A DNA stretch of 64,000 nt from Druceiella hillmani (taxonomy: Eukaryota; Arthropoda; Insecta; Lepidoptera; Hepialidae), in assembly GCA_039881145.1 (NCBI GenBank), contig JAYKKI010000004.1:48264001-48328000 (forward strand), written 5' to 3'. Positions 5,461-53,170 of the stretch are shown here, in pieces (the stretch's first letter is position 1; each line of letters opens with the position of its first letter). The translations under genes and the position numbers were made by a program. Under the pieces are notes generated by a model. That model ran no database searches and was not told the origin of the DNA. It saw only the letters and a list, made by a program, of their open reading frames with translations.

Positions 5461-7248
5461 AAACTTTTTTTTGCAATCATAAACTATTTACACAAATTTA
5501 TTTCTTTTTCATGATATATGATTTGGTTGATTTCGTTATGTGGTATTATTTTCAGGTATTACCAAAAAAATTGAGTTAGAATAATTGAGTTTCTCTTATA
5601 ATTGGGGGGAAGGTGGGAGTTGTGGTAAGTACCCTATTTACTTTACCTTGGCTATGTACATAGAAAAAAGTTGATTGATAAAAAAAACGTTGTTCGGTTT
5701 TATAGGTGGTGGCAAAATTTTGACCATATTATATTTAGTTTTGTTATGAATATGTTTTGTTCTAAAACTAGAAAATGACGAACTTCTAAAATTTTTATGT
5801 ACTTCAGAAATAATCTTATGTCAAATGTATTTTTTCCTTCATCGAGCATTTCAACTTCAAATTGTTTATATGTCAGTCCAATATAGGTGGAACATGTATA
5901 TTGTATGTGTTTAAATATTAATCTGATAACAACATCTATCGCACACTATTTATCACGCTAATTATATTCATATACATGATGTTAAAGGATAATTCTTATT
6001 TAATAATCTTTTTAATATTTTTTCAATATGAATACATCTTATAAATCAGGACGTTAGTTTCGAAAGTGGAGTATGGTGAAAACAATAAACGTTTTAAAAT
6101 ATTATTTAATGTTAAGCACGTACAATAAAGCCCAATTGTGTTAACATCGATATAGGACGCCACCTATATTATAGACCGTGACCTACTGGCAGGATGATGT
6201 GTGTATTGATACGTTCGAGTGATGAGCCTATGGATACAGACACACCCAAAGAGTTGCTGGTTCGTCAGTCATGTGTTTTTAGCAAAGTTGTCACTGGACA
6301 AGTTGTGAGAAGCAAGATGGAATAAAAGCAAAAGTCTCTTCAAAAAGATTTTTACTAACAAGTTTTTACTGGACCATAACATAAGCAGGTGGTGTCAAAA
6401 TTTGACCATATTCTATTTTATAGAGAATCATTTCGTATCAAGTCGTATTAGGACTGAAATTTCTAGGTTTAATTACGTAAAGAATGTTATTTTTTATAAT
6501 TTAAGTAGGACTTGGAGTCACTAAGAGTTGTGTTTGCTTCATCGTCTGCTATTATATAACATTTATAACAAATGAAAATTCTCGGTTCACGTGTCGATCC
6601 GAATACGATTCCGTTACGAAAAGTGTGAACCTTACGTCAGCTTAACTGTCAGATTAAAATGATTTGTAAGAGACTTAATTCCACATATTTCCCTTTCTCG
6701 CTTAACCCTTCCGCATGGCCGCCGATAATGACCTTCCGATGAGCCCCTCGCCTTCGATTGATCGAAAGACGCCAGAGGAGATATCCTTCGTTGATACGAA
6801 CCACTAATATTGAATATTATATAGTAACATTTTGCATGAATATGTGTGTAATACTTTTTGGAGTATATACAGATATCGCAAAAAAATTGGAAGTTATCTG
6901 CTTTTATGTAACTTTATTTACTTTTGTTACTATTAAAATTATGGAGGTACTAAAACGGAATGAACCGTTTTGGTTTCTCTAAATTTTTGGGTAAAAATGA
7001 AAATGGTCTACTCTGTAATAGATATGTCAATACGCTGGTCAATATGGAGTGTTTGTTTCTCATTAGAACTGTAACATAATTTTGAGTTGCTCTAGTTATT
7101 CTTTTAATTAACAAAATTCGCACACACTTAAGTATATATTAACATTTTAATGGTAAATGGTATTCCTAATAAATACTATCTTACTTAGACTTAAAGTATT
7201 TTGTTTGTCCATAATTAAATGCGACTATAAACTAAGATTACCTTTCAT
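5461..7248. other. Non-coding stretch with a 33-bp direct repeat
   Basis: No recognisable gene. Near-identical segments at 5704-5737 and 6387-6419 (aggtggtggcaaaattttga / aggtggtgtcaaaatttga) run in the same direction about 680 bp apart. Between them, aatataggtgg (about 5880) and ccacctatatt (about 6163) form an inverted pair. This may be the remains of a transposon, but no transposase can be read. ORFs at 5130-5390 and 6758-6982 show no family features. Confidence 0.4.
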
Positions 7249-7510
7249 AATTAAATGAAACTACGTGATGTAGCATTATTTCAACTTCCTTTCAGTTCTT
7301 TACCACGATCTAGGTTTCGTTGTATTACAACATCTTCAGGTGAGCTATTAGCAATTATCTTTGCTAATAGCCCACCTGAAGATGTTGTAATATAACGAAA
7401 CATAGGTCATGGTAAAGAACTTACAGAAAGTAGAAATAATACTACATCACGTAGTTTCATTTAATTGTGAATAATGAATTTCTACGAAATTAACACCAAA
7501 TATATTCAAT
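7249..7510 (+). mobile_element. Foldback element, copy 2 (hammerhead-motif family)
   Basis: Nearly full palindrome centred near 7353: two arms of about 105-110 bp with a small loop at gctattagcaattatctttg. The one-sided family tail is at the right (about 7468-7510), so this copy is in plus orientation. Hammerhead-like motifs lie on the minus strand at 7303-7345 (stem III damaged, cctagat for cctaggt) and on the plus strand at 7371-7422 (stem II and stem I each with changes). No clean target-site duplication is visible here. Confidence 0.85.
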
Positions 7511-7937
7511 ATTTCGTTTGTAATATTGTTTACTTATAAATTATTTCACGTGTTATAATTCTTAGGTGTTGATTTTATATACATGTAATTCTAATATTTT
7601 GATAATGTGTGTAATCTTGGAACTAAATTACAGCTTCCTAGGTATTGTCATTTTCAAAATAGATAATACATAAAAAGATGTGGTAAACTAACCATTTTTG
7701 TATTATCCAAAATTGTTATATTTTGGTTGGAACATTTAAATAATGCATTTCAACTAAAAGATATTTTATTTAACGGTAAACATATTACGAGGAGGAAAAA
7801 TATGATAACTACAGGATTATTTATTTATAAAGACTGATTGACAAGGAAAGATGTGACTATTTGCTTTATATATTTACATGTACGTAATTTGAATTTTTTT
7901 AGTAAACGGATAAATAAAAAAGTTAATTTTTTGAATC

Positions 7938-16049: not shown

Positions 16050-16727
16050 CAATATATACAGATTTGCCTAATGTAGTTAATGATGTTGGATCGAATCATA
16101 TTATCACTGGCCATGTAGGATCAGTAAATTTTGCCACTAGATACAATTTTAATTAGGGTACTTGATATATACACACTTGTCTAATATAGTTAATGATGTT
16201 GGATCGAATAATATTATCGCTGGCCATGTAGGATCAGTAAATTTTGCCACTAGATAACATTTTAATTAGGGTACTTGATATCTACAGATTTGTCTAATGT
16301 AATTAATGATGTTGGATCGAATAATATTATCGCTGGCCATATAGGATCAGTAAATTTTGCCACTAGATAACATTTTAATTAGGGTACTTGATATATACAG
16401 ATTTGTCTAATGTAGTTAATGATGTTGTATCGAATCATATCATTGTTGGCCATATAGGATCAGTAAATTTTGCCACTAGATAAAATTTTAATTAGGGTAC
16501 TTGTTATATACAAATTTGTCTAATGTAATTAATGATGTTGGATCGAATAATATTATCGCTGGCCATGTAGGATCAGTAAATTTTGTCACTAGATAAAATT
16601 TTAATTAGGGTACTTGATATATACAGATTTGTCCAATGTAGTTAATGATATTGGATCGAATCATATTATCGTTGGCCATGTAGGATCAGTAAATTTTGCC
16701 ACTAGACAAAATTTTAATTAGGGTACT
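16050..16727. repeat. Tandem array, 6 units of 113 bp
   Basis: The landmark gatgttggatcgaa recurs at 16082, 16195, 16308, 16421, 16534 and 16647, exactly 113 bp apart each time. Each unit contains ggccatgtaggatcagtaa and ttttaattagggtacttg. Units differ at a few scattered positions only and there are no indels. It ends abruptly at gggtactcatcagc. No ORF runs through it. Confidence 0.95.
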
Positions 16728-21014: not shown

Positions 21015-21377
21015 CCAGCAAACTTGCAGAGTTTGCAGAGTGCACACTCTCGCATAGAGTCAGCATTGTCCAGGCAGAGTCGGCTTCGGGTAGAACTGAC
21101 AGGCAATGGATTCTTAATGGGCTTTGCGTAGTATGTAGAAATAACGGGTAGTGTCAATATTGCTAAACTAGCAGTGGGCAAAGTTGAATTCATCCATCTA
21201 CGTGCGTAGTTTGTCTAACTTCAAGTGGGTATTAATAATATATATGTAATCAACTGAATTATAATGAATTAAAAATATAAGACATTTGTTTTGAGTTAAA
21301 CTTTTGGTGATAAAATTTAATGTCAAGCACATTAAGTTTAACTTGTTTTAGTTGTACTTATGAACAATAATTTATAT

Positions 21378-21584
21378 ACAATTAAATGAAACTACGTAAT
21401 GTAGTATTATTTCTACTTTCTTTAAGTTCTTTACCCCCCATTAGCTAGGTTTCGTTGTATTACAACATCTTCAGGTGGGCTGTTAGCAAAGAACTTAAAG
21501 AAAGTAGAAATAATACTACATCACGTAGTTTCATTTAATTGTGAATAATGAATTTCTATAAAATTAACGCCAAATATATTCAAT
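21378..21584 (+). mobile_element. Foldback element, copy 3 (one arm shortened)
   Basis: The left arm is complete up to the ggtgggctgttagcaaag centre. The right arm lacks the inner part and resumes at aaagaacttaaag. The family tail is at the right. Target-site duplication: AATAATTTATAT at 21366-21377 and AATAACTTATAT at 21582-21593 (11 of 12, overlapping the tail end). The hammerhead motif of the left arm (minus strand, about 21435-21478) is broken at the GUC/stem I side by attagc. Confidence 0.82.
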
Positions 21585-21593
21585 AACTTATAT

Positions 21594-25350: not shown

Positions 25351-25478
25351 AATGTAGATGACGCCAAATGTTTTGTATGAGTCAAATATTTTGTATGAAT
25401 GTCTATTTAGATAGGATGAAAAATATGTAAATATAAAATCGAGTTCAAGCTTCAAAAATGTAAAAAAATTACATGACT

Positions 25479-25704
25479 TATTGAATATATTTGGCGTTAA
25501 TTTTGTAGAAATTTATTATCGACAATTAAATGAAACTACGTGATGTAGTATTATTTCTACTTTCTTTAAGTTCTTTACCACGACTTAAGTATCTTTGCTA
25601 ATAGCCCACCTGAAGACGTTGTAATACAACGAAACCTAGGTCGTGGTAAAGAACTTGAAGAAAGTAGAAATAATACTACATCACGTAGTTTCATTTAATT
25701 GTCA
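25479..25704 (-). mobile_element. Foldback element, copy 4 (clean target-site duplication)
   Basis: Flanked by a perfect 11-bp duplication, ATTACATGACT, at 25468-25478 and 25705-25715. The family tail is at the left (minus orientation). The left arm is shortened between ccacgactta and agtatctttg; the right arm is complete. The 95-codon ORF crossing the right end is chance. Carries the best hammerhead-like motif of the window (separate entry). Confidence 0.9.
25605..25647 (+). ncRNA. Hammerhead-type ribozyme-like motif
   Basis: Order of elements: CCAC (25606-25609, stem I), CTGAAGA (25610-25616, fits CUGANGA), one extra base (25617), GTTGT-AAT-ACAAC (25618-25630, stem II hairpin), GAA (25631-25633), ACC-TA-GGT (25634-25641, stem III with a tiny loop), C (25642, the H17 cleavage position after GU), and GTGG (25643-25646) pairing with the CCAC. 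All three stems pair fully. Deviations from the textbook core are the extra base before stem II and a very short stem III. Related motifs are known from Penelope-like element terminal repeats. Cleavage activity is inference. Confidence 0.5.
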
Positions 25705-25715
25705 ATTACATGACT

Positions 25716-26499: not shown

Positions 26500-27053
26500 A
26501 AATAAGTCGCACTGCCTGACCTTTGACTACATCAATGGCCCCATGTTCTAAGCTAATACCTTGCGAAGGAAATACTTTGCGAACTTCGGAATCAAATTGC
26601 ATTGTAGAGGATCTTTTAAGTCTGCTTTTGCCATTCCATGCTCCAAATGTCTTACTTAAGACGTGGTGTTCAAGTAATACTGTTTATCAATTTGACTAAG
26701 GTTAATTTCCTACGATTTTCTAAGGAGTAAGGACCACATCCATATTCTGCTTTAATATTATTGATTGAAGAAACAGCAATCATTTTGGAGGCCCTTTATT
26801 AGACTATATCGATCTTTTCTTTTACGGAAGGGGCGGATGGTGCCCATATAGGTGCAGCATATTCAAGAATGAGCCTTACACTTGAGGTGTATGTATTCAG
26901 AAGAGTTTTGGGTTGCAATCCCCAAGATATACCACAAAGTCTCTTTAAAATCTTAAGTCTTTTTAAGGCTTTATTCGAAGTTTGTTCAAGGTAGTTGGAG
27001 AATCTCAACTCTGGGTCGAAAGTGACACTGAGGTACTTAACATGATGTTTCAT
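26500..27053 (-). pseudogene. Non-LTR retrotransposon reverse transcriptase, C-terminal part
   Basis: The 84-codon frame at 26799-27053 begins MKHHVKYLSVTFDPELRFSN. This matches the VKYLGVTFD.KL.W..H segment found just after the palm in Jockey-type LINE ORF2. It continues with ALKRLKILKRLCG, then TLLNTYTSSVRLILEYAAPIW, the usual thumb segment (LL.LY.A.VRS.LEYG.P.W). After stop codons, downstream frames keep related residues (RASKMI, YSLENRRKLTLVKL, then WNGKSRLKRS in frame-shifted pieces) to about 26500. The upstream catalytic YADD region is missing. A 5'-truncated, decayed copy with no host function expected. Confidence 0.8.
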
Positions 27054-27174
27054 TGTTGCTGATTATTCTGTCACGATGAAGAATAGCGTGTAAGTAAGAA
27101 AATGGAAGAAGAAATAATCAAATTATTATGTCTACTTTCATTTTTTAAAGAGATTAGATAAGATTCTTCTTCTT

Positions 27175-37263: not shown

Positions 37264-38046
37264 ATAAAACGACTGTCAAATTCGAATTCTCAGGTCACGG
37301 GTCTGATTCATAATTAAATATTTTAAGTACGCGTATAAAACGACTGTCAAATTCGAATTTTCAGGTCACGGGTCTGATTCATAATTAAATATTTTAAGTA
37401 CGCGTATAAAACGTCTGTCAAATTCGAATTCTCAGGTCACGGGTCTGATTCATAATTAAATATTTTAAGTACGCGTATAAAACGACTGTCAAATTCGAAT
37501 TCTCAGGTCACGGGTCTGATTCATAATTAAATATTTTAAGTACGCGTATAAAACGACTGTCAAATTCGAATTCTCAGGTCACGGGTCTGATTCATAATTA
37601 AATATTTTAAGTACGCGTATAAAACGACTGTCAAATTCGAATTTTCAGGTCACGGGTCTGATTCATAATTAAATATTTTAAGTACGCGTATTAAACGACT
37701 GTCAAATTCGAATTCTCAGGTCACGGGTCTGATTCATAATTAAATATTTTAAGTACGCGTATAAAACGTCTGTCAAATTCGAATTCTCAGGTCACGGGTC
37801 TGATTCATAATTAAATATTTTAAGTACGCATATAAAACGTCTGTCAAATTCGAATTCTCAGGTCACGGGTCTGATTCATAATTAAATATTTTAAGTACGC
37901 GTATAAAACGACTGTCAAATTCGAATTCTCAGGTCACGGGTCTGATTCATAATTAAATATTTTAAGTACGCGTATAAAACGACTGTCAAATTCGAATTCT
38001 TAGATAACGGGTCCGATTTATAATAAAATCTTTTAAGTTCACGTAG
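37264..38046. repeat. Minisatellite, 11 units of 71 bp
   Basis: The unit starts ataaaacgactgtcaaattc and contains gaattctcaggtcacggg and ttaagtacgcg. The word g(a/t)ctgtcaaa occurs at 37271, 37342, 37413, 37484, 37555, 37626, 37697, 37768, 37839, 37910 and 37981, exactly 71 bp apart. Ten units are almost identical; the last decays after 38000. Variant bases recur in several units: t at the second base of gactg in units 3, 8 and 9, and gaatttt in units 2 and 6. Recent amplification is likely. Confidence 0.98.
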
Positions 38047-38338
38047 AGGTCATACGTGAAGGTCATATGAGAGTTTCTTACACACGAGGTAATATATGCA
38101 CATATATTTTAAGGTCTAGTACTTTTTTTCGTAATTTACGATTATAATATTATGCCTGTGAAATACGTATGTAGTGAACTGCATACTTACGTAGTGATAA
38201 ATATTATTACCCATTTTAAATAGTTTAATTTAATGCTATGTAGCTTCAAATGTTTAAACATTCATATATATTTCATGCTCGTAATCATATTAGCTTCATT
38301 GCAGTTATTGCAATGAAGCTGAGAACTGGATCAAGGAA

Positions 38339-38535
38339 TTTTGAATATATTTAGCGTTAATTTTGTCGTAAATTCATTATTCACAATTAAATGAAACTAC
38401 GTGATGTAGTATTATTTTTTAAGGTTTTTGCTTACATCCCACCTGAAGATGTTGTAATACAATGAAACCTAAGTCGTGGTAAAGAACTTAAAGAAAGTAG
38501 AAATAATACTACATCACATAGTTTCATTTAATTGT
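38339..38535 (-). mobile_element. Foldback element, copy 5 (clean target-site duplication)
   Basis: Perfect 11-bp duplication GGATCAAGGAA at 38328-38338 and 38536-38546. The tail is at the left. Most of the left arm is deleted after gtagtattatttttt; the right arm is complete. The plus-strand hammerhead-like motif at 38439-38479 keeps stem I CCAC/GTGG and the core CTGAAGA...GAA. Its stem III is weakened (ACC against AGT) and stem II has one mismatch. Confidence 0.88.
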
Positions 38536-38864
38536 GGATCAAGGAACATGGGTTTAATAACCTTTTACAAATTTCGTATTTCTTTGAAGTAAGTCCACAG
38601 CCTAAACAACCTGACGCTACATTAAACCACAGTATTAGAGCGCTTTACTCAGTCACCACAGGAAAAGCATACGCCGAGACGAAAGCATGGAATAGACGAG
38701 GACGAAATGAAAAGTTCCAGTACATTACTAGACGCGTTCCGTGTGACAGGATTATGGAGCGGAAACGGTGGTCGGCGCACGCTCATCCGCCCGTGACAGC
38801 CTTTACGGAACCAGCCGGCGTTTTCCGGCAGAGACTGCTTCCGGGTGAGGTAGAATGCTATTAA
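38532..38864 (+). CDS. Unrecognised 110-codon ORF in a GC-richer islet
   Basis: From about 38620 to 38880 the sequence is much GC-richer than its flanks. The ORF product is basic (RALYSVTTGKAYAETKAW, then RRGRNEKFQYITRRVPCDR, then HAHPPVTAFTEP) and matches no family I know. The first 15 or so codons lie in the end of the foldback element and its duplicated target, so the ATG is not original. A 3' or internal exon piece, a lost element, or a conserved non-coding islet are all possible. Confidence 0.25.
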   Translation: MWIKEHGFNNLLQISYFFEVSPQPKQPDATLNHSIRALYSVTTGKAYAETKAWNRRGRNEKFQYITRRVPCDRIMERKRWSAHAHPPVTAFTEPAGVFRQRLLPGEVECY

Positions 38865-46854: not shown

Positions 46855-47023
46855 TATAATCCTTGTAGTCTATAGTGGAAGGTATATAAACCGTAATACA
46901 GTCACTACATTTCCTTTCTCTGCTCGGTGACGCCGCAATTCTTGATGTCACCGAGTAGAGAAAGGAAATGTAGAGACGGTTTTACGGTCTATATACCTCC
47001 CACTATAGACTACAAAGATTATA
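46855..47023. mobile_element. Hairpin foldback element, 169 bp
   Basis: Long arms pair almost end to end: tataatccttgtagtctata ... ctctgctcggtgac against gtcaccgagtagagaaagga ... tagactacaaagattata, with a 15-bp loop (gccgcaattcttgat). A few mismatches and single-base gaps near 46890. No transposase and no clear target duplication. Confidence 0.85.
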
Positions 47024-50562: not shown

Positions 50563-50707
50563 TTGATTGAATATATTTGGCGTTAATTTTGTAGAAATTC
50601 ATTATTCACAATTAAATGAAACTACGTGATGTAGTATTATTTCTAACTTCTTTAATTTCTTTAACCATGACCTAGGTTTCGTTGTATCACAACATCTTGA
50701 GGTGGCA
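50563..50707 (-). mobile_element. Foldback element, copy 6 (truncated)
   Basis: Family tail and left arm complete up to ggtggcaaag; the whole right arm is missing. The minus-strand hammerhead-like motif (50664-50705) has CTCAAGA in place of CTGAAGA, which should abolish function, and CATGG for CGTGG. No target duplication seen. Confidence 0.85.
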
Positions 50708-52440: not shown

Positions 52441-53170
52441 GATAGGGTGCATCTAGTCGTGATGAGAAATGAGAAAGATTACTGTTCGATGAACGCGTAA
52501 TAATGAAACGAATAGGCTATAATTGACATACAAAGATATATAATTTTGATATATAAAGTCCATTACTCGAGAGGGTTTTAAATAATTAATAAGTACAATA
52601 ATATTCATATGATGTTGATGAGAAATGTGAAAGATTGCTGTTCTCTGAATGCGTAATAATGAAACAAATAGACTACAATATAATAGTGTGATGTTCAAAT
52701 GCCATTAATAGAGAGTATAAAATCATGTTGACCCAATCATGATAATAAGTGTGAAAGATTGCTGTTCTCTGAATATGTAATAATGAAACAAATAGACTAT
52801 AATATAATAGTGTGATATACAAATGCCATTACTAGAGAGTGTAAAATCGTGTTGACCCAATCATGATAATAAGTGTGCAAGATTGCTGTTCGTTGAATAT
52901 GTAATAATGAAACAAATAGACTACAATATTATAGTGTGATGTACAAATGCTATTACCAGAGAGTGTAAAATCGTGTTGACTTAATCATGACAATAAGTAT
53001 GAAAGATTGCTGTTCTCTGAATATGTAATAATGAAACAAATAGACTGCAATATAATAAAGTGTGGTGTAAAGAGGTCATTACCCGAGAGTCTTTTAATTA
53101 ATTTGTAGGTCGTGTTACCTGATCATGACGGGAAATGTGAAAGATTGCTGTAAAGAAGAATGCGTAATAA
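52441..53170. repeat. Tandem array, about 124-bp unit, 6 copies
   Basis: The word gattgctgtt (or gattactgtt) occurs at 52477, 52633, 52757, 52881, 53005 and 53143. The four central units are exactly 124 bp apart; the outer ones are 156 and 138. Each unit has gtaataatgaaacaaataga and a cgtgttgacccaatcatgat stretch. Minus ORF 52453-52698 is a shadow. Confidence 0.92.

Follow-up and report, generated by a model that had tools for sequence, protein, structure and literature searches.

The foldback elements of Druceiella hillmani analysed here very probably derive from a Penelope-like element (PLE), as solo pseudo-LTRs joined in inverted pairs that would be inserted by a process in which both strands of the target prime reverse transcription. 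They lie in a window of 64,000 nt (the whole stretch of DNA analysed; the genome measures 2.59 Gb and has 181 contigs), and their arms carry a motif resembling a hammerhead ribozyme. The odd occurrence of two such motifs as an inverted pair within one element is best read as a by-product of the PLE mode of insertion.

Foldback copies in the window

Six related inverted-repeat elements had been noted in the window, and six related copies do lie at those places (74–97% identity in local alignments between copies); five are two-armed, asymmetric foldbacks, and the one at 50563–50707 proved to be a single arm. In the orientation of the hammerhead-like motif, the arm (about 113 nt) starts with ATCTTTGC, runs through the motif and ends with ...AATTGTGA. 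A tail of about 41 nt (TAATGAATTTCTAC...TTCAATA) extends beyond the arm end, at one end only in 5/5 two-armed window copies. The copy at 25479–25703, a foldback with no assigned strand, has a tailed left arm on the minus strand (25479–25597) that is truncated at its inner end (arm consensus position 37 onward) and a tail-less right arm on the plus strand (25591–25703) that begins at the constant ATCTTTGC. It is flanked by the target-site duplication AATTACATGACT on the left (25467–25478) and on the right (25704–25715).

The remaining copies vary on this plan. Copy 1 combines a tailed minus-strand arm (852–1004; motif G12 changed to A) with a tail-less plus-strand arm (1035–1146) that lacks 3 nt at the start of stem II, between flanking duplications with one mismatch (840–851 and 1147–1158). 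Copy 2 has a tail-less minus-strand arm (7244–7354), whose motif (7303–7343, minus strand) passes a relaxed structural scan and has no Rfam hammerhead match, and a full tailed plus-strand arm (7356–7511); no target-site duplication was found around this copy (7244–7511). In copy 3, the motif of the tail-less minus-strand arm (21378–21492) is disrupted on the helix I/III side, the tailed plus-strand arm (21488–21585) is truncated ahead of the motif, and the duplication (21365–21377 and 21581–21593; one mismatch) overlaps the tail end. Copy 5 comprises a tailed minus-strand arm truncated at arm position 78 (38341–38417) and a tail-less plus-strand arm (38427–38534; motif at 38439–38479), with the target duplication TGGATCAAGGAA at 38327–38338 and 38535–38546. 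The lone arm of copy 6 (50566–50705, minus strand) is tailed and carries CTCAAGA in place of CTGAAGA.

The window contains other repeats. Tandem arrays occupy 37264–38045 (71-bp unit, 11 copies, 97% matches; directly upstream of the 38339 element), 16052–16727 (113-bp unit, 6 copies, 92% matches) and 52626–53057 (124-bp unit, 3.5 copies, 91% matches). An 87-aa open frame on the minus strand (26802–27062) resembles, by eye, a fragment of reverse transcriptase from a non-LTR retrotransposon and has no Pfam match. The low-scoring matches to microRNA-precursor models in the window (Rfam up to E 10) arise because the matched sequences form hairpins; one hairpin outside the six foldbacks (46870–47008) gave sub-cut-off matches to several such models.

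Link to a Penelope-like element

A tblastn search revealed no PLE remnant in the window (best E values, 5.3 for a reverse transcriptase fragment and 0.41 for an endonuclease fragment), and Pfam analysis of 10 of the 53 window open reading frames of at least 75 aa gave no family above cut-off. A search of the host genome for GIY-YIG endonucleases yielded two loci: L080, presumably an SLX1 nuclease-like gene, and L081. The L081 frame (121 aa; 34.5 bits against a cut-off of 22.6) is flanked by an antisense arm without a full tail (86% identity to the arm consensus) and a sense tailed arm (90%), and the sole database protein above threshold (188 aa) is 50% identical to it. The L081 body matched 40 scored places among 5035 candidates. 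An arm lay 3′ of the PLE body in 18/20 fetched loci (including that of L081 itself), at or near a ...GAGTTA/ATCTTTGC border; L091 and L092 retain only the first arm bases at the body border, and the arm of L097 is internally deleted. In L064, a locus found through its arm, about 110 nt of L081-type body (83% identical) adjoins the arm. Further coding traces are weaker, with GIY-YIG scores of 19.8 and 20.3 bits in L084 and L089 (below the 22.6 cut-off) and an upstream RVT_1 frame in L095 (27.9 bits, E 2.4e-6, just below the 29.6 cut-off), which has tblastn relatives in L086, L089, L090, L091 and L099.

On sequence grounds, the combination of reverse transcriptase and GIY-YIG endonuclease linked to the arms is that of a PLE, the arms are putative PLE pseudo-LTRs and the foldbacks would be inverted solo pseudo-LTRs. 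All coding copies seen are decayed: no intact PLE was found, the frames being broken in 20/20 loci examined (40 of the 5035 candidates were scored), and neither a full-length copy nor a direct pseudo-LTR–ORF–pseudo-LTR arrangement within one copy occurred in the 20 loci or in three longer stretches. By eye, PLE-adjoining arms appear to depart somewhat further from the arm consensus than the window arms do, and the solo arms may therefore have a source RNA of their own. In L091, a 331-aa frame that looks by eye like a mariner transposase separates the first PLE-arm bases from an arm piece about 1.3 kb further on; perhaps a mariner inserted into the PLE arm.

Ends, duplications and centres

We analysed the structure of 52 two-armed copies: the 5 from the window, copies at 19 of 20 loci retrieved with a whole-element query and 28 pairs in 24 of 30 loci retrieved with a tail-less query. 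These are the best matches of the searches and not random picks. L051 and L058 (duplicates of the 25479 copy and of L032) and L052 (a tandem expansion) were excluded, and no arm pair was recognized under the script's rule in L043, L059, L064 and L067. Matches ending at arm positions 104–137 were classed as having no tail and those ending at position 148 or beyond as tailed; the counts of arm starts used slightly different limits.

The asymmetry of the window copies proved general. One tail and one tail-less end were present in 45 copies, two tails in 4, none in 1, and 2 were unclear. By sample, the one-of-each arrangement accounted for 5/5 window copies, 18/19 copies from the whole-element query, which itself has one tail, and 22/28 from the tail-less query; among the 26 classified copies of this last sample, 22 is above the expectation of one half (one-sided binomial P 0.0003). 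Target duplications of 8–19 bp with at most one mismatch flank 34/52 copies, with a mode of 12 bp (39/906 background trials), and were not found in 18/52; an earlier run with other limits gave 19/30 against 29/600 background trials.

The inner ends of the two arm types also differ. Arm starts fell at positions 1–5 in 44/48 tail-less and 26/61 tailed arms, some of which were selected by the query; among hand-sorted arms that were not query-selected, the counts were 16/18 and 8/22 (Fisher P 0.001). In whole-element alignments, tailed arms stop at variable points and are followed by a few unmatched bases and then by the tail-less arm from its constant start. Grouping by centre sorted the 52 copies into 47 groups, indicating that, in most cases, the inverted pair is created by the insertion event itself. 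One group holds five copies, in which the centres of L030, L036 and L038 are identical and those of L032 and L035 close, and a few joins consist of an identical short palindrome; some foldbacks may therefore have been re-copied, or have been joined through short homology. L071 holds two pairs that resemble one local duplication. In L053 (777–1616), three foldback-like pairs stand in series, with starts 270–310 bp apart.

The flanks of 53 loci (132.5 kb) held 12 further arm clusters, some of them PLE copies, and the window has 6 in 64 kb. This suggests about 2 × 10^5 clusters genome-wide, to be taken as an order of magnitude only, given that the loci are non-random.

The hammerhead-like motif

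The order of elements that had been claimed for the 25479 copy holds, with refined coordinates. The motif (25606–25646, plus strand) consists of CCAC (25606–25609), CTGAAGA (25610–25616), an extra C (25617), stem II (GTTG 25618–25621, loop TAATA, CAAC 25627–25630), GAA (25631–25633), ACC-TA-GGT (25634–25641), C (25642) and GTGG (25643–25646), with the predicted cut after 25642. Stem II had been counted as 5 bp; the fifth pair takes the G of GAA, and because this G must stay free in the hammerhead register, that register gives 4 bp plus one extra base. The statement that all three helices pair likewise fails for a single molecule, in which the loop of ACC-TA-GGT is 2 nt and the minimum free energy fold is not a hammerhead. 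The extra base between CTGAAGA and stem II was correctly noted and is present in all three window arms that pass a relaxed structural scan permitting one such base after CTGANGA (25606 plus, 38439 plus and 7343 minus). De la Pena and Flores reportedly described, in 2001, a viroid hammerhead with an additional nucleotide in its core, and minimal type I hammerhead motifs of PLEs are said to have been treated by Cervera and de la Pena in 2014 and by Lunse in 2017.

Covariance-model searches, which the earlier note had proposed as a check, gave only sub-threshold matches. Rfam found nothing at gathering thresholds in the whole window or in six host loci (three with PLE bodies), and the whole-window results up to E 10 contained no hammerhead. 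When short stretches were searched, Hammerhead_1 (RF00163) matched 25606–25646 with 14.7 bits (E 0.27) and 38437–38481 with 11.7 bits (E 2.5), both below the 34-bit cut-off, and was the best of 4227 Rfam families on the 25606–25646 stretch; no hammerhead was reported on the stretch 7300–7355. The relaxed scan matched nothing when applied to 60 dinucleotide-shuffled versions of the window. Pattern scans of the viral_contigs collection returned 2 + 19 matches, of which, by eye, the 2 look like coding sequence and the 19 are unconvincing as hammerheads, and an exact family-specific pattern had 0 matches in the genome_contigs collection.

Folding predictions differ between one and two molecules. 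The lowest-energy fold of monomer arm RNA is not a hammerhead, and that of a dimer of the T/U variant is a double-hammerhead layout with a shared helix III of 8 bp. This exact fold arose in 0/500 shuffles under a strict criterion; the energy gain of the dimer is ordinary, with 124/500 shuffles equal or better. In the dimer fold of the C variant, which includes the window's best arm, the extra C pairs with the G of GAA that is needed free in a hammerhead. The whole 25479 element folds as one long hairpin (−114 kcal/mol).

The consensus of 114 arms contains the invariant core (CUGANGA, GAA and UH) and one extra base ahead of stem II; 61/79 motif-spanning arms keep the core and 41/79 the core with all helices. 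Among 80 arms, partly selected by a query with C at this site, the extra base is T in 48, C in 26 and deleted in 6, and in six arms T and A replace C and G at the extra base and G12. In the test for compensatory changes that had been called for, one-sided substitutions in stems I–III (11 pairs) break the pair in 40 cases and keep it in 16, and double changes keep it in 1 and break it in 2, a weak test in young, pseudogene-like copies. Conservation of the motif does not exceed that of the other arm sequence (divergence outside CpG, 0.030 in the motif and 0.028 elsewhere). By the earlier note's own tests, the ribozyme claim is weak. Stem decay in the copies says little about the source RNA, however, because the copies are pseudogene-like. 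We consider the motif, from its sequence, a degenerate hammerhead-like motif of the PLE type with putative activity.

Inner ends show no peak around the predicted cut, which separates arm positions 52 and 53 (ends at 51–55 in 0/48 tail-less and 4/61 tailed arms), indicating that the template RNAs were mostly uncut. Two comparisons between the arms of a copy bear on the number of templates. At position 64 (C or A), the two arms of a copy agree above chance (Fisher P 0.0012) with 5 discordant copies, which may reflect two template molecules from one pool and is too weak to rest on. Derived states common to both arms of a copy number 14, where shuffling gave a mean of 5.7 (P 0.002), as could also result from one template. 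A seemingly strand-biased G at position 67 (14 arms, all plus strand; 0/51 minus-strand arms) was set aside as most likely an effect of search selection, the tail-less query having G. In L052 (1232–1500), a minisatellite of about five units of about 53 bp has grown from the arm start and motif.

Proposed origin and alternative explanations

The arms' link to PLE coding remnants, the tails, the target duplications, the mostly unique centres and the fixed start of tail-less arms are all observed features, and from them we infer two-strand priming, the RNA 5′ end and the use of two template molecules. PLE protein would cut both target strands, and each cut end would prime reverse transcription of PLE RNA at one or the other of its two internal start sites, which lie about 41 nt from each other. 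Copying from the inner site (giving the tail-less arm) would usually reach the fixed point ATCTTTGC, taken as the RNA 5′ end solely because of this sharp boundary, the sequence beyond the tail in a full-length element being visible in no copy, and the cDNA from the outer site (giving the tailed arm) would often halt at a variable point. The two cDNAs would then be joined head to head, with repair leaving a target duplication of about 12 bp. The inserts would be gene-less because the start sites lie inside the 5′-proximal pseudo-LTR, and the hammerhead-like motif would be carried along within it, in RNAs mostly uncut at that place. More tentatively, and with rather less than even confidence, we propose that PLE insertion is a concerted, two-ended reaction in which a dimeric protein with two RNAs primes once per strand and uses each start site once, giving one tailed and one tail-less end; the genome would then hold some 10^5 natural records of such events, made from RNAs not cut by the hammerhead.

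A gene-less inverted repeat could also be a MITE or a foldback DNA transposon with long terminal inverted repeats. This is scarcely credible here: the duplication length is variable (8–19 bp) and not fixed, the ends are usually unlike, differing by the 41-nt tail, the arms are truncated on the inner side, and the same arms adjoin PLE endonuclease remnants. Replication of the two-ribozyme foldback itself, as the earlier note had it, was at first suggested by the 40 scored whole-element matches, which are nearly full length, and is also compatible with the centre common to L030, L036 and L038 (L032 and L035 being close). We now consider it very unlikely: the similar layout of those matches stems from the query that selected them, the truncation points of tailed arms vary, centres differ (47 groups among 52 copies), and the arms are putative PLE pseudo-LTRs. 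The concern that a full-length hairpin would compete with the ribozyme fold largely falls away with it, because a foldback copy need not be the source of the functional RNA. What stands of the proposed hammerhead-bearing non-autonomous family is an ORF-less mobile family with Penelope-type hammerhead-like arms; the ribozyme matches are sub-threshold and the stem changes mostly break pairs.

Two further explanations concern the source RNA and the motif. Solo arms might be transcribed from ATCTTTGC as a short, SINE-like RNA and moved in trans by PLE protein, with unchanged insertion chemistry. The high density of ORF-less copies (12 further clusters across 132.5 kb of flanking sequence and 6 in the 64-kb window) and the constant arm start would fit, as would TAGCCCACCTG, about 12 nt from the arm start, which by eye matches the pol III A-box pattern (TRGYNNANNNG); no B box was seen. 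Yet the junctions are mostly new, so that transcription of a foldback copy would need to begin inside one arm, and a PLE mRNA with the same start point would yield identical products, which leaves the short RNA somewhat unlikely. That the hammerhead likeness is a chance resemblance, or a dead relic inside a PLE pseudo-LTR, would agree with sub-threshold covariance scores (neither the window nor six loci gave one at gathering level), the extra base after CTGAAGA, the excess of broken stem pairs (40 against 16 for single-sided changes, 2 against 1 for double), a conservation no higher than in the rest of the arm (0.030 and 0.028), the unremarkable dimer energy gain (124/500 shuffles) and the missing peak of inner ends at the predicted cut. 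We nevertheless regard it as unlikely, given 0 scan matches in 60 shuffled windows, the top rank of the hammerhead among 4227 families on its stretch, the U-variant dimer with its double-hammerhead layout (exact fold in 0/500 shuffles), the pseudogene-like state of the copies, whose decay is uninformative on the source RNA, and the minimal type I hammerheads reported in PLE pseudo-LTRs in the parts of those sources considered (PMC6155905, PMC7761336). We retain inverted solo pseudo-LTRs of a PLE, bearing a degenerate hammerhead-like motif, as the preferred reading.

Significance and comparison with known systems

PLE insertion is poorly known. A family this abundant, with its sharp ends, its tails and its joins, provides natural data on the mechanism, bearing on which priming site is used on each strand, where the template RNA starts and whether hammerhead action precedes reverse transcription. 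The family also suggests that gene-less foldbacks of PLE origin can come to fill a genome, where repeat finders could call them MITEs. Inverted pseudo-LTRs, tails and hammerhead motifs are already published for PLEs; what stands out here is the gene-less abundance and the one-of-each use of priming sites. Our literature search found no report of a dominant arms-only PLE family, which is not proof of absence.

The following comparisons draw on the portions of the cited reports considered here. Inverted pseudo-LTRs and 3′ extensions are described as peculiarities of PLEs (PMC8969392). The enzyme of the Anolis carolinensis PLE (PAc) cuts and extends both target strands from two internal start sites, producing a tail, and unprocessed RNA is its dominant template in vitro (PMC11167929), with which the mostly uncut templates here agree. 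Further likenesses to PAc, an element of the Penelope/Poseidon type, are the GIY-YIG domain, the two reverse transcription start sites with an optional tail of 30–40 bp and a hammerhead motif at the border of pseudo-LTR and ORF (PMC11167929). In contrast to PAc, the coding copies seen here have broken frames, the tail measures about 41 nt and the arm search mostly gave gene-less inverted pairs.

Penelope families of Adineta vaga have inverted pseudo-LTRs, a 31-bp tail on one of them and duplications of 8–10 bp (PMC3846280), and resemble the present family in their inverted pseudo-LTRs, one-sided tail, palindromic junctions and solo pseudo-LTRs; they are of low copy number (PMC3846280), whereas arms-only pairs are very numerous here and duplications centre on 12 bp. 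The hammerheads of PLE pseudo-LTRs are described as minimal type I, lacking helix III or tertiary contacts, and those of PLEs and Terminons match the motif here in their CTGANGA and GAA core, GUC site, weak or missing monomeric helix III and likely dimeric action (PMC6155905, PMC7761336); the one extra base between core and stem II sets ours apart. Metazoan retrozymes are likewise non-autonomous and hammerhead-bearing, with PLEs suggested as helpers, but have canonical hammerheads and circular RNAs and are arranged as direct tandem repeats (PMC7229834), in contrast to the inverted pairs of Druceiella hillmani.
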